From positions 1 through 30,960 of the IMG/VR virus record IMGVR_UViG_3300044611_001304: a stretch of DNA of 30,960 nt. One strand, written 5' to 3'. Numbering within the stretch: the stretch's first letter is position 1; every line of letters starts with the position of its first letter. Source of the DNA: a virus. Below are positions 3,412 through 30,960 of the stretch, in pieces. Both the position numbers and the translations under genes were made by a program. A model generated the notes under the pieces. It worked only from the letters and a program-made list of their open reading frames with translations. It was not told the origin of the DNA and searched no databases.

Positions 3412-3593
3412 TGTTTAAGTTTATTTTACATAAATTGTTTAATCAAAGAAAAATGCACGATTCTACTCTTGACCTGTTTTGTAATCATGAGTCTGCTGAG
3501 TATGCAGATGAGTTTGCAATATATGTAGAAGAACTTGCTTCAAAATATGAAGTGACTTGTGATTATATCATCCAAGAGTTTATCTTGGACTAA
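3411..3593 (+). CDS. Small hypothetical protein
   Basis: A 60-residue protein with a short basic N-terminus (MFKFILHKLFNQRK) and an acidic helical remainder. It starts in a TGATG overlap with the preceding gene, so it is coupled to it. It ends just before a strong terminator. No function is assigned. Confidence 0.55.
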   Translation: MFKFILHKLFNQRKMHDSTLDLFCNHESAEYADEFAIYVEELASKYEVTCDYIIQEFILD

Positions 3594-3610
3594 TATATAA
3601 TAATGCCTGG

Positions 3611-3679
3611 GTTGGGTGCAATCTTCACAGGTAAAGGAGCAGAAATGCTCCTTTTTAACTAAATAGTAAAGCACCCAAC
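3611..3679 (+). terminator. Intrinsic terminator nested inside a longer inverted repeat
   Basis: The inner hairpin has arms AAAGGAGCA (3633-3641) and TGCTCCTTT (3646-3654) with a GAAA tetraloop, running directly into a T tract, a textbook intrinsic terminator. It sits inside perfect 9-bp outer arms GTTGGGTGC (3611-3619) and GCACCCAAC (3671-3679). The outer arm ends 13 bases before the next ATG and could also control access to that start. Confidence 0.8.
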
Positions 3680-3691
3680 TTTAGAGCAGTT

Positions 3692-4228
3692 ATGCAAGTT
3701 TTAGATGTTAAATGCATCAATGAATCGTTAGGTATTGATGCACCAGACTTTTTATATTTTGAAGAAACTTCCTTTGTTGAAAAACAATGGACTTCTCCTT
3801 GGTTCAAAGGAAAACCGTGGAACAAAGGAATTTCTCATACCAAAGAAACTAAGAAAAAAATTAGTGAAGCATTAAAAGGAAGAATACCATACAATAAAGG
3901 TATTCCCCATACAGAAGAGACAAAAAGAAAAATAAGTATTGCAAACTTTGGTAAAACTTCTTATTGGAAAGAAAAAACTATACCCAAATCTTCCGTGGAA
4001 AAAATGAAGGCAACTAAAAAATTAAAAGGAAGTTATGTTGGTGAATGTAATCCTATGGCAAAAACTTATAGAATAACATTTGACAATGAAAACTTCATTA
4101 TGATAAAATCACTTCAAACTTGGGCCATTGAAAATGGCTACAAACCAACCAGTCTTAGAAACTTATATAATGGGAGACAAAAATCTCCACATAAAAATGT
4201 GATAAGTGTTTCAGTGGAGTTTATGTGA
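3692..4228 (+). CDS. NUMOD3-containing homing endonuclease derivative lacking a nuclease domain
   Basis: A 178-residue basic protein. Two tandem NUMOD3-like DNA-binding motifs are visible at about residues 39-61 (WNKGISHTKETKKKISEA) and 65-86 (YNKGIPHTEETKRKISIA), a pattern seen in GIY-YIG and HNH homing endonucleases. The C-terminal 55 residues (SLQTWAIENGY..SLRNLYNG) resemble the helix-turn-helix end of such proteins. Neither a GIY-YIG nor an HNH motif is present in the N-terminal 38 residues, so it is probably a degenerate or DNA-binding-only remnant. It stands alone between a terminator and a promoter module, consistent with a mobile insertion. No obvious Shine-Dalgarno is seen; T4-like homing genes often have occluded starts. 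Confidence 0.75.
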   Translation: MQVLDVKCINESLGIDAPDFLYFEETSFVEKQWTSPWFKGKPWNKGISHTKETKKKISEALKGRIPYNKGIPHTEETKRKISIANFGKTSYWKEKTIPKSSVEKMKATKKLKGSYVGECNPMAKTYRITFDNENFIMIKSLQTWAIENGYKPTSLRNLYNGRQKSPHKNVISVSVEFM

Positions 4229-4291: not shown

Positions 4292-4321
4292 GTATGAATA
4301 CAAACGTTACTTGACTTATTG

Positions 4322-5557
4322 ATGCTGACTCTTCTTCCTTATCAACAACGTGCTCTGAAAGCAGTTCAGAACTCCATTAAAGGTTCTGTGTATATTCCTA
4401 CTGGTGGTGGGAAAACTGTTGTGATGATGGAAGATGCTCGTCAGAGGATTCTTAACGCACTGGAACCAATGACATTTGTTGTTGTTGCTCCTCGTATTCT
4501 GCTTGCAAATCAACTTTGTTCTGAGTTTGAAGCATATCTCAAGGACCAGAATGTTGCTTATATGCACGTTCACAGTGGTGAAACTCATCATCAATCCTCT
4601 ACACGTCCAGCAGACATTGCAGAATACAATGACACTGCAATCGGAAGTGGTAAGCATCAGTTTATCTTCACCACTTACAATTCGATTGGTCGGGTGAATG
4701 AGTCTGATATTGAAATTGATGTTGTGTATTTTGATGAAGCACATCATTGTGTGAAACCATCTAACTTTGTGGGTATTGCTCATACTTCATCAGTTGCAGA
4801 TAATGCTTATTTCTTCACTGCAACTCCGAAGTTTAATAACAGCACTGAGTCTATGAATAATACTGATGTGTATGGTAGTAATATCATCAGTATTCCTGCA
4901 CAAGAACTGATTGATGCTGGTAGTATTATTCCTCCCAAAGTTGTGCCTTATGAAGCACAAACCATTCGCACTAAAGAAAATGCTGCATTTGTAGATGCAG
5001 AGAACATTGTAGGTATCCTGTCAGAGATTTCTGATTGTGATGCACCTAAAGTTCTTGTTGCTGCTCCTAGCACCAAAGTAATCTGGGCAATGTTTACTGA
5101 GAGTGATTTGCTTCAACAACTCAATGATATGGGTTATACGATTATGCATATCACTTCTAAGCACGGTGCTTATATTGACAAACAGAAAGTGTCTCGTGAA
5201 GTCTTCTTTGAGAAGATGAATGAGTTTGGTGCAGACCCAGAAAAGAAGTTCATTGTGTTTCACTACAGCATCTTGTCTGAGGGTATGAACGTGCAGGGAT
5301 TGACTGATTGCATTATGCTTCGCAATCTTCCATTGATTGAAATGGCACAGACTGTTGGACGGGTTATCCGTATGCACGGTGATGACCGTAAAGCAATCGC
5401 AGATGGTAAGATGAAAGCAGGAGAGTTTGCTTTCTACAAGAAACCATTTGGCACTATCACGATTCCTGTTAATAACAACTATGGTGATAAGATTGCAAAG
5501 CAACTTCAAAATGTTGTGGATACTATCTTTGTGAAAGGTGAAGTTCTTGGTGTATAA
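4322..5557 (+). CDS. DEAH-box superfamily 2 helicase
   Basis: A 411-residue SF2 helicase/ATPase. Walker A is PTGGGKT at residues 26-32, the DEAH box (motif II) is at 138-141, motif III is TATP at 166-169, and a QTVGRVIRMH motif VI is near residue 350. An N-terminal LLPYQQRALKAV is a Q-motif-like element, as in UvsW and type III restriction-like helicases. It is shorter than T4 UvsW (about 500 residues) and I see no accessory domain, so I do not call it uvsW. A role in branched-DNA or replication/recombination processing is likely from the family. The ATG at 4322 is preferred to TTG at 4319. Confidence 0.88.
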   Translation: MLTLLPYQQRALKAVQNSIKGSVYIPTGGGKTVVMMEDARQRILNALEPMTFVVVAPRILLANQLCSEFEAYLKDQNVAYMHVHSGETHHQSSTRPADIAEYNDTAIGSGKHQFIFTTYNSIGRVNESDIEIDVVYFDEAHHCVKPSNFVGIAHTSSVADNAYFFTATPKFNNSTESMNNTDVYGSNIISIPAQELIDAGSIIPPKVVPYEAQTIRTKENAAFVDAENIVGILSEISDCDAPKVLVAAPSTKVIWAMFTESDLLQQLNDMGYTIMHITSKHGAYIDKQKVSREVFFEKMNEFGADPEKKFIVFHYSILSEGMNVQGLTDCIMLRNLPLIEMAQTVGRVIRMHGDDRKAIADGKMKAGEFAFYKKPFGTITIPVNNNYGDKIAKQLQNVVDTIFVKGEVLGV

Positions 5558-5584: not shown

Positions 5585-5749
5585 ATGCCATTTACAAAGA
5601 AATTTCCACAGTCAGGAGAAACAACCCATATTCGGGTTCCAAAATGTTATGCAGAATTGATTGAAGAACTGATGGTAACGTTAGATGAACGATTTGATGT
5701 AGAGAAAGGAAAGCATCTGTTAAAGAAGTTTATACACAATCTTACCTGA
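5585..5749 (+). CDS. Small hypothetical protein with 'RVPKC' motif
   Basis: A 54-residue basic protein starting at ATG 5585. The centre reads HIRVPKCYAELIEELM, followed by a helical end. The layout (RVP, then a short helix, then LD, then a basic helix) matches the small gene at 16101-16262, so the two may be distant paralogues. A small DNA-binding or regulatory protein is possible but unproven. It is the second gene of the helicase operon. Confidence 0.6.
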   Translation: MPFTKKFPQSGETTHIRVPKCYAELIEELMVTLDERFDVEKGKHLLKKFIHNLT

Positions 5750-5764
5750 GTCTAATGATACGAT

Positions 5765-5822
5765 GTGCCACTTGAAAAGGTGGCACAATAAAGTTCCACT
5801 CTGCTCCCAGATGTCCTATAAT
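5765..5822 (+). promoter_or_regulatory. Intergenic promoter module D
   Basis: Perfect palindrome arms GTGCCAC (5765-5771) and GTGGCAC (5780-5786) precede TATAAT at 5817-5822. The usual GAGCACAGACC box is replaced by a divergent C-rich sequence. The left flank (AATGATACGATGTGCCAC) closely matches module J. It drives the restriction-modification pair. Confidence 0.65.
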
Positions 5823-5844
5823 GATGGAATCAAACAAAAGTCAA

Positions 5845-6462
5845 ATGCCTAAAACATTTAAGTATGATGTTTTTGCTATTATATCTGATTTAGATGTTAA
5901 TACTGGTGTTTCAAATTGGATTGATATTGATGAATTATCTTCTGCTTTTGTTGATGGTGGATTTGAACCAATACAACAAGGAAATGGAACCGGTATTGAA
6001 GGATCAGAGGGGGCACCAAGATTTTGTAATTGCAAACGATCTAAAAAACTTATTTGGGAATCTATCTTTGTAAAAGGGAAACTCAAGTCGGTAAGAGTAA
6101 ATGGATATAAAAAAGAAGATATAGTATCAACAACCATTCCTGCCAGTATTCGGAATGAGTTTGAAAATGTTAATATCTGTAATTGGACTTTGCTTCCTGT
6201 TGGTGGAAATAATATGTCTCTTCGTAAAGAGATAGATCATCGTTGGGGAAATAAACAAAAGCATAATCACAACGATGTTAGTGATTATCAAGTTGTTAGC
6301 AAATTGTTTAATGATTTCAAAAGACAGGAGTGCAAAAAGTGTATTGAAACTGGTGTAAGATATAAGCATCCAGAAAAAGAATTTGTTTTTGGTTGCCAAA
6401 CTTATGAAGATAACGTAGGATGTCAAGGATGTCCTCTTGCACAACCTGAACTTTACCGTTGA
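5845..6462 (+). CDS. HNH-family type II restriction endonuclease-like protein
   Basis: A 205-residue protein. The C-terminal half has an HNH-like (beta-beta-alpha-metal) active-site pattern: SLRKEIDHRWGNK at about 125-137, then DYQVVSKLFNDFKRQ at 147-161. It has paired Cys suited to bind zinc (C163/C166 and C184/C193/C196) and an ending CQGCPLAQPELYR like that of several HNH type II restriction enzymes. Next to it is an adenine methyltransferase, so the two look like an R-M pair. The ATG at 5845 is chosen because an earlier in-frame ATG at 5821 overlaps the -10 box. The cut site cannot be predicted. The alternative is a homing or other HNH nuclease. Confidence 0.7.
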   Translation: MPKTFKYDVFAIISDLDVNTGVSNWIDIDELSSAFVDGGFEPIQQGNGTGIEGSEGAPRFCNCKRSKKLIWESIFVKGKLKSVRVNGYKKEDIVSTTIPASIRNEFENVNICNWTLLPVGGNNMSLRKEIDHRWGNKQKHNHNDVSDYQVVSKLFNDFKRQECKKCIETGVRYKHPEKEFVFGCQTYEDNVGCQGCPLAQPELYR

Positions 6463-6467
6463 TTGTT

Positions 6468-6989
6468 ATGTCTTTAGATAGTGGAAAACTAATGTATTCT
6501 GCAGGAAATAATGATGAATGTTATACTCCTGCTTATGGTGTAACACCTATTATTAAGTACATTCCTAAAGATGCAAAAGTTTGGTGTCCATTTGATACTA
6601 AAGAGAGTGAGTTTGTAAAACAAATCTCGCAAACTAATAGTATAGAATACTCTCACATCAGTGAGGGAAAAGATTTCTTTACCTATGAACCATTCCATTG
6701 GGATGTAATTGTATCCAATCCACCATTTACAAATAAACGTAAGTTTTTTGAGAGAGCATTGTCATTTGGTAAACCATTTGCTTTGGTTATGACCAACACT
6801 TGGTTGAATGATAGTGCTCCAAAACAGTTGTTTAAGGATAAGGATCTTCAACTTCTTATGTTTGATAGGAGAATGAAATTCAATAGTCCTGATGGTAGAT
6901 CAAATGACAAGATTACATTCAGTAGTAGTTATTATTGTTGGAACTTTCTTCCTAAGCAAATCATTATGGAAGAACTTAAAGTTAGTTGA
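6468..6989 (+). CDS. EcoRI-methylase-like adenine-specific DNA methyltransferase
   Basis: A 173-residue protein with the amino-methyltransferase motif NPPF at residues 84-87 (WDVIVSNPPF), the expected N6-adenine motif IV. Upstream are ECYTP at 18-21 and VWCPFDTKESEFVK near 38-51, an S-adenosylmethionine-pocket equivalent seen in short EcoRI-methylase-like phage proteins. It starts 5 bases after the nuclease gene stop, so the two are co-transcribed. It likely protects phage or host sites from the adjacent nuclease. An internal ATG at 6492 is an alternative start. Confidence 0.82.
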   Translation: MSLDSGKLMYSAGNNDECYTPAYGVTPIIKYIPKDAKVWCPFDTKESEFVKQISQTNSIEYSHISEGKDFFTYEPFHWDVIVSNPPFTNKRKFFERALSFGKPFALVMTNTWLNDSAPKQLFKDKDLQLLMFDRRMKFNSPDGRSNDKITFSSSYYCWNFLPKQIIMEELKVS

Positions 6990-6990
6990 T

Positions 6991-7047
6991 GTGCCACTTG
7001 TAGCACTGGCACAGTAAATGAGCACAGACCCGTGGTTGTGGTATTAT
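6991..7047 (+). promoter_or_regulatory. Intergenic promoter module E
   Basis: Arms GTGCCA (6991-6996) and TGGCAC (7007-7012) are followed by AGTAAATGAGCACAGACCC. The -10-like TATTAT is at 7042-7047, 10 bases after the box. AGGAAG precedes the ATG at 7071. Confidence 0.65.
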
Positions 7048-30429: not shown

Positions 30430-30960
30430 ATGGCAAGACTAGGGATATTTACTGGAACTACACCGAATGATGGTACTGGAGATACTTTGTCTCAAGGTGC
30501 AGTAAAGGTTAATAGTAATTTTCAAGAAATTTATACAGCAATTGGTGATGGGACAAATATCACAAATACAATTTCTTTTGCAACTACTTCAACTAATGTA
30601 ATTGGGGGAATTGCCTCAGTAACAAGTTTAAATGTTTCTGATGGTATTTCCACTGTTGGTTTTTTGACCGCAAATAACATCAATGTTGTCGGAATCATAA
30701 CTGCTTCAAGTTTTATAGGCAACTTAACAGGTACAGCAACTACGGCTAATAATGTAAGTTCTATTATTAACGTAGATACCACTGGTATTATAACTGCTTC
30801 AAGTTTTGTGGGTAACTTAACTGGAACAGCAACTACAGCAACTACAGCAGTTGGTTTAAGTACAACTTCAAGCATTAATACTACTGGTATTATAACTGCT
30901 TCAAGTTTTGTAGGTAACTTAACTGGAACAGCAACTACAGCAACTACAGCAGTTGGTTTA
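30430..30960 (+). CDS. Repeat-rich tail/fibre structural protein (partial)
   Basis: An open frame running off the right edge, 177 codons long so far. The N-terminus (MARLGIFTGTTPNDGTGDTL, then KVNSNFQEIYTAIGDG) matches the phrase found at the start of many phage fibre or baseplate proteins. It is followed by repeats of the unit TTGIITASSFVGNLTGTATT, 34 residues per unit in the last two copies. Such repeats build long fibre stems. The full protein is probably much longer. Confidence 0.82.
   Translation, partial: MARLGIFTGTTPNDGTGDTLSQGAVKVNSNFQEIYTAIGDGTNITNTISFATTSTNVIGGIASVTSLNVSDGISTVGFLTANNINVVGIITASSFIGNLTGTATTANNVSSIINVDTTGIITASSFVGNLTGTATTATTAVGLSTTSSINTTGIITASSFVGNLTGTATTATTAVGL
30781..30960 (+). 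repeat. 102-bp tandem repeat inside the tail gene
   Basis: The unit beginning ACTGGTATTATAACTGCTTC occurs at 30781 and 30883 (period 102 bp, 34 codons) and is nearly identical over its length; a diverged copy lies about 93 bp earlier (near 30691). The repeat encodes the fibre repeat above. Confidence 0.8.

Follow-up and report, generated by a model that had tools for sequence, protein, structure and literature searches.

Organization of the locus

The analyzed window is a 30,960-base IMG/VR virus fragment whose nearest nucleotide relatives are T4-like cyanophages, i.e. phages of ocean cyanobacteria. Inspection of the window confirmed both open reading frames of the pair considered here, a nuclease gene (5821/5845-6462) and a methyltransferase (MTase) gene (6468-6989). 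As the first-pass annotation had noted, the ATG of the latter (position 6468) stands 5 bases past the nuclease stop codon. The distinguished features of the locus are as follows.

4319..5557, + strand: flanking helicase gene (Pfam ResIII/DEAD, phrog_16), a context marker outside the cassette
5585..5749, + strand: left flanking gene, 54 aa, a context marker
5764..6989, + strand: whole predicted mobile cassette, 1,226 bp, from hairpin start to hairpin start, absent from relatives
5764..5787, + strand: left hairpin TGTGCCACTTGAAAAGGTGGCACA, 8-bp perfect stem, left cassette boundary (repeat families D1/D2/D5 and empty-site comparison)
5817..5822, + strand: TATAAT, taken as the -10 box of the cassette's promoter (by consensus only; conserved in contigs L004 and L043)
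5845..6462 (longest ORF from 5821), + strand: ICEA/NlaIII-family HNH-type nuclease gene (Pfam PF05315, conserved motif, dN/dS)
6468..6989, + strand: M.EcoRI-like adenine-type DNA MTase gene, 173 aa, SNPPF motif, phrog_799 (PHROG/Pfam matches)
6990..7044, + strand: right hairpin-promoter copy, the single copy retained at the empty site of contig L202
7071..7235, + strand: right flanking gene, 54 aa, a context marker

Upstream of the helicase gene, at positions 3692-4228, the window carries a NUMOD3-motif homing-endonuclease-like gene (PF07460, E=4.9e-16). The contig ends in a direct repeat (83% over ~178 bases; 30691-30960).

The ICEA-family nuclease gene

ICEA (PF05315) is the sole Pfam family matched by the nuclease (E=2.4e-14, 53.9 bits), and the match lies above the curated cut-off of 24 across most of the protein length (residues 16-213). 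The same profile matches the homologues encoded by contigs L004, L005, L081 and L102. The HNH-like motif EIDHRWGNK and the two CxxC pairs described in the first-pass annotation are present (C171/C174 and C201/C204, numbered from 5821). In eight homologues from viruses, the most divergent of them 35% identical, residues H140, D155, N164, K167, C171, C174, C201 and C204 are invariant, and the extended pattern EIDHRWG-x-K...D-x-Q...N-x-F/Y/L-K-R...CxxC...CxxC is largely conserved. The motif and the cysteines fit an HNH-type metal finger, in which these residues may have catalytic roles. Assignment of the HNH fold is based on the motif and the Pfam match, because the AlphaFold model (pLDDT 40) offers no usable fold; a search of the PDB for sequence relatives found none. 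Membership in a non-restriction HNH family had been named beforehand as a finding that would speak against a restriction nuclease. The protein falls in the restriction family ICEA (IceA1/NlaIII) and not among the general homing-type HNH proteins.

Two start codons are available in frame. The start at 5845, chosen in the first reading of the sequence, is likelier than that at 5821, since the TATAAT box (5817-5822) overlaps the upstream ATG, the 22-nt spacing between TATAAT and the ATG at 5845 recurs in other copies of the same element, and the homologue in L005 begins at the equivalent codon.

Using tblastn, no match to the nuclease was found among isolate phages and one was found among plasmids, an ORF of a Priestia plasmid. 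Pattern-limited scans of cellular genome contigs yielded no ICEA relatives by the same method, which is not evidence of their absence, and PADLOC gave no match to the nuclease. On the basis of its profile and motif, we regard the protein as a putative addition to the ICEA/NlaIII restriction family, carried by a phage.

The iceA1 alleles of Helicobacter pylori are mostly broken (PMC13340068), and the pair described here might likewise have decayed and no longer work as a restriction-modification (R-M) system. This is very improbable, as the reading frames are intact, the motif residues are invariant in the eight divergent homologues, and dN/dS among close nuclease homologues equals 0.12-0.24 (values for divergent ICEA pairs, whose dS is near saturation, are unreliable).

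The methyltransferase gene

The second gene of the pair encodes a protein similar to phrog_799 'DNA methyltransferase' (E=8.9e-36). Its relatives number 293 in viral contigs, and identity among cyanophage contigs reaches 81-94%. The earlier description of this protein as EcoRI-methylase-like with an NPPF motif holds in part: the motif is present as SNPPF, and the homologue from Thermus phage TMA (47% identical) scores above the cut-off of PF13651 (EcoRI_methylase; 28 bits, 1.8e-06), but the window protein itself matches this family weakly (E=0.0035, 17.2 bits, below the cut-off of 26.4). In the structural model a core is confidently predicted, with weak matches to SAM-dependent methyltransferases, several of which are RNA m6A enzymes; the motif, too, could be found in RNA MTases. 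Because of the nature of these structural matches, DNA adenine methylation is graded as likely and not higher. The protein is short, with no separate target-recognition domain visible, and its matches in PADLOC are weak.

Genes encoding ParB/DGQH-like proteins recur directly upstream of the MTase gene (L097:4576-5589, L096:3003-3935, L024:742-1755 and L323:539-1939), Thermus phage TMA included, where the gene encodes a ParB CE domain.

A PvuII-like gene in the nuclease slot

To survey the nuclease slot, defined as the region within 2.5 kb upstream of the MTase gene, 88 MTase loci were examined, comprising the best 80 of the 293 relatives and eight others. A PvuII-like gene was found in 67 of these loci, an ICEA gene in 11, both in one (L096) and neither in nine. 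Given the nine empty slots, the MTase can exist alone. In the 67 loci the PvuII-like gene is mostly contiguous with the MTase gene or overlaps it. In L096 (1841-4487) genes for an ICEA nuclease, a PvuII-like nuclease, a ParB-like protein and the MTase stand in a row, while in L044 a small HNH gene (3574-4005) separates the PvuII-like gene from the MTase gene.

When a profile of 14 PvuII-like sequences was compared with the PDB, PvuII ranked first (E=2.9e-5 with its tandem chain and 0.009-0.015 with single chains). As in PvuII, with which these proteins align over most of their length, the active-site D, E and K are conserved: D61, E70 and K72 are invariant and match D58, E68 and K70 of PvuII. 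However, the proteins reach at most 19.7 bits against PF09225, under the Pfam gathering cut-off of 25, and are therefore named PvuII-like only. A further difference from the PvuII system concerns the partner, which is not of the PvuII type (M.PvuII is an N4-cytosine MTase). The dN/dS values of the PvuII-like gene (0.09-0.19) and of the MTase gene (0.05-0.14), together with those of the ICEA gene, reveal from sequence comparison purifying selection on all three.

Two cultured phages carry the PvuII-like gene, in both cases labelled hypothetical. In P-TIM68 the gene (L007:3463-4008, AIR93420.1) adjoins the MTase gene, and in P-SSM2 (L103:2498-3004, PSSM2_100.1) the two lie ~6.6 kb apart.

The sister phage L043 shares the genomic context of the window, with matching DNA through the helicase gene. 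The similarity extends over the hairpin, promoter and leader (85% to window positions 5763-5850) and ends at the nuclease start codon; past this codon L043 has a PvuII-like gene (3507-4004), after which the match to the window resumes at the start of the MTase gene. Since the promoter/leader and the MTase gene match and the nuclease differs, the nuclease body has been exchanged with the promoter and MTase retained. In the MTase tree the ICEA label requires at least seven changes by parsimony, of which just two are forced by well-supported branches.

Linkage of nuclease and methyltransferase genes

One feature of type II R-M systems is the linkage of a nuclease gene with a DNA MTase gene. Among 13 viral contigs found with the nuclease as the sole query, the same MTase gene lies within 2.5 kb downstream of the ICEA gene in 11 (11 of the 12 testable contigs). 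Contig L006 ends inside the nuclease gene, so that the downstream gene is not on the contig. In the 126-kb contig L102 an N6_N4 MTase gene (PF01555, E=2.1e-38) overlaps the ICEA gene, replacing the usual partner. All 12 testable ICEA contigs thus have the nuclease gene with a DNA MTase gene, even if an unrelated one, as expected of a restriction enzyme. The region L102:3223-4561 is a second case of a putative phage R-M pair built on an ICEA nuclease, its MTase being unrelated to that of the window.

The proposal of a restriction nuclease paired with an adenine MTase, made in the first-pass annotation, is borne out as regards the nature of the pair, i.e. the ICEA family and the MTase linkage. 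Its view that complete R-M pairs are rare in phages does not apply here, with a PvuII-like gene upstream in 67 of the 88 MTase loci and an ICEA gene in 12.

Phage MTases may also act alone against host restriction, and the nuclease could be an accessory enzyme degrading host DNA at sites that the MTase does not share. The nine loci with an empty slot, the distance between the two genes in P-SSM2, and the related MTases of Thermus and Fusobacterium phages, which adjoin other genes, agree with such an arrangement. In cyanophages, however, the ICEA and PvuII-like genes lie directly upstream of the MTase gene, often overlapping it, and a nuclease with a short site would ruin the phage's own genome if it lacked cognate protection. 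We therefore consider this explanation unlikely.

Hairpin-promoter elements and empty sites

The early region of the window contains, between genes, at least nine copies of PeSL-like hairpin-promoter elements (at 5764, 6990, 7890, 9210, 10193, 11098, 12268, 13412, 13902, 14377). They follow the pattern TGTGCCACTTG...TGGCACA...TATAAT, and some copies are more than 90% identical. The single promoter proposed earlier for the pair is represented by the hairpin and the TATAAT box, recognized by consensus, but sigma-70 promoter and terminator scans did not single out the site, as the cassette promoter was not above chance.

The pair is absent from seven contigs, several of which may represent one phage (L195-L197, L199 and L202-L204), whose helicase genes are 95-99.5% identical to that of the window. 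In these contigs the right 54-aa gene starts ~0.3 kb past the helicase gene, compared with ~1.5 kb where the cassette is present. The empty site of L202 retains one hairpin (TGTGCCACTTG...TGGCACA) and the window has two, from which it follows that the cassette is a unit of 1,226 bp, extending from 5764 to the start of the second hairpin at 6990. Thus a module bounded by repeated stem-loop and predicted promoter sequences is present or absent among relatives, as in PeSL cassettes. The insertion contexts of the pair differ, with separate ones distinguished in the window and L004, in L005, in L081 and L092, in L094 and L095, in L096, and in L097.

Near-identical phages with empty and filled sites would also be produced by a homing-like element, in which a free-standing HNH nuclease spreads by cutting the insertion site of relatives that lack the cassette, with the MTase as a passenger or resistance marker. 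Other HNH and NUMOD3 genes do occur in these phages (window 3692-4228; HNH genes in L044 and L097). Phage homing endonucleases are recognized by the absence of a cognate MTase (PMC6449724), whereas here the pairing with an MTase is nearly universal. Moreover, ICEA is a restriction family, the cassette occupies several unrelated contexts and not one fixed site, and the same slot is also taken by an unrelated PvuII-like nuclease. Homing accordingly appears improbable, slightly more so than a solo MTase with an accessory nuclease.

Site composition of the phage genomes

CATG is the most depleted palindromic 4-mer of the window by z-score, with 11 occurrences against ~104 expected (0.11, i.e. ~nine-fold depletion). 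This was rejected as proof of the nuclease target, because empty-site relatives are equally depleted (0.02-0.11 of expected) and PvuII-like loci similarly so (median 0.15). In isolate cyanophages CATG reaches 0.41-0.91 of the expected count, a weaker depletion. The shortage of CATG characterizes the phage clade and gives no firm pointer to the target of the cassette; since relatives without the cassette are as strongly depleted, some other pressure, such as host restriction or other phages, seems to act on CATG in this clade. Depletion of AGCT, considered as a sign of targeting by the PvuII-like nuclease, was rejected too, as it was seen in all cyanophages tested.

Proposed function and comparison with known systems

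The explanation that we consider likely, with fair confidence, is that the pair is a minimal type II R-M system forming a mobile cassette of T4-like cyanophages, in which non-homologous endonucleases are interchangeable. The cassette is probably employed against unmodified host DNA or the DNA of rival phages. Soon after infection its own early-type promoter would drive the nuclease and MTase genes together; the MTase would mark phage DNA at the recognition site of the nuclease, and the nuclease would cut DNA lacking the mark, i.e. the host chromosome and/or unmodified genomes of competing phages. The cassette would insert at the repeated hairpin-promoter elements, and the promoter and MTase gene would stay in place as the nuclease body is swapped for an unrelated PvuII-like one.

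Since the two kinds of nuclease share an MTase partner, they would, most simply, both cut the site that it protects. A more specific form of the proposal, which we put forward tentatively and hold to be rather less probable than not, is that a single MTase serves unrelated ICEA (HNH-type) and PvuII-like (PD-(D/E)XK) nucleases, which replace each other in place and hence have the same cut site (convergent isospecific enzymes), and that the cassette serves competition among phages, spreading by way of hairpin-promoter elements as it cuts unmodified co-infecting genomes. If the R-M reading is true, the coexistence of filled and empty sites in near-identical phages points to ongoing conflict among phages. 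The exchange of nuclease genes suggests that phages may trade DNA weapons as interchangeable parts.

HpyIM and M.NlaIII belong to an MTase type other than the EcoRI-methylase-like one. As in the NlaIII and iceA1-hpyIM systems, the window nuclease belongs to the ICEA family and its gene immediately precedes one for an adenine-type MTase; unlike these systems, the cyanophage pair is phage-borne and mobile, and its partner MTase is EcoRI-methylase-like. IceA1 of H. pylori is a restriction enzyme, a CATG-recognizing isoschizomer of NlaIII (PMC2816704; PMC13340068). The H. pylori locus beside hpyIM holds unrelated alternatives, iceA1 or iceA2, at one place (PMC13340068). Two unrelated alternatives likewise share the cyanophage slot beside the MTase gene, but here the alternative is a recognizable PvuII-like PD-(D/E)XK protein.

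With PeSL cassettes the window shares repeated promoter/stem-loop elements around small modules subject to gain, loss and shuffling. The shuffling of genes in T4-like phages has been attributed to PeSLs (Arbiol 2010; Comeau 2014, both cited in PMC4503421), although PMC4503421 itself was doubtful that the mechanism applied to the S-PM2 ORFs under study there. The window differs in its cargo, a predicted R-M pair, and in the additional exchange of the nuclease body by itself.

Virus-encoded restriction endonucleases with cognate MTases are found in Chlorella viruses (CviAII and others), where they are thought to degrade host DNA. The window pair is similarly virus-encoded and consists of a predicted nuclease and MTase, but Chlorella viruses infect eukaryotic algae, and hairpin-bounded cassettes with nuclease replacement are not known from them.

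The proposed novelty is a mobile R-M cassette in which ICEA-family and PvuII-like nucleases can replace each other; the open-access literature searched contained no report of such a cassette, which is weak evidence of absence. If the proposal is true, complete unannotated type II R-M systems are common in abundant marine cyanophages, including the cultured P-SSM2 and P-TIM68, and a single MTase with interchangeable unrelated nucleases provides a natural experiment in which the gain or retention of specificity by restriction enzymes can be studied. The idea is directly testable in P-TIM68, which is in culture. In this phage a separate N6_N4 methylase gene is located just upstream of the PvuII-like gene.
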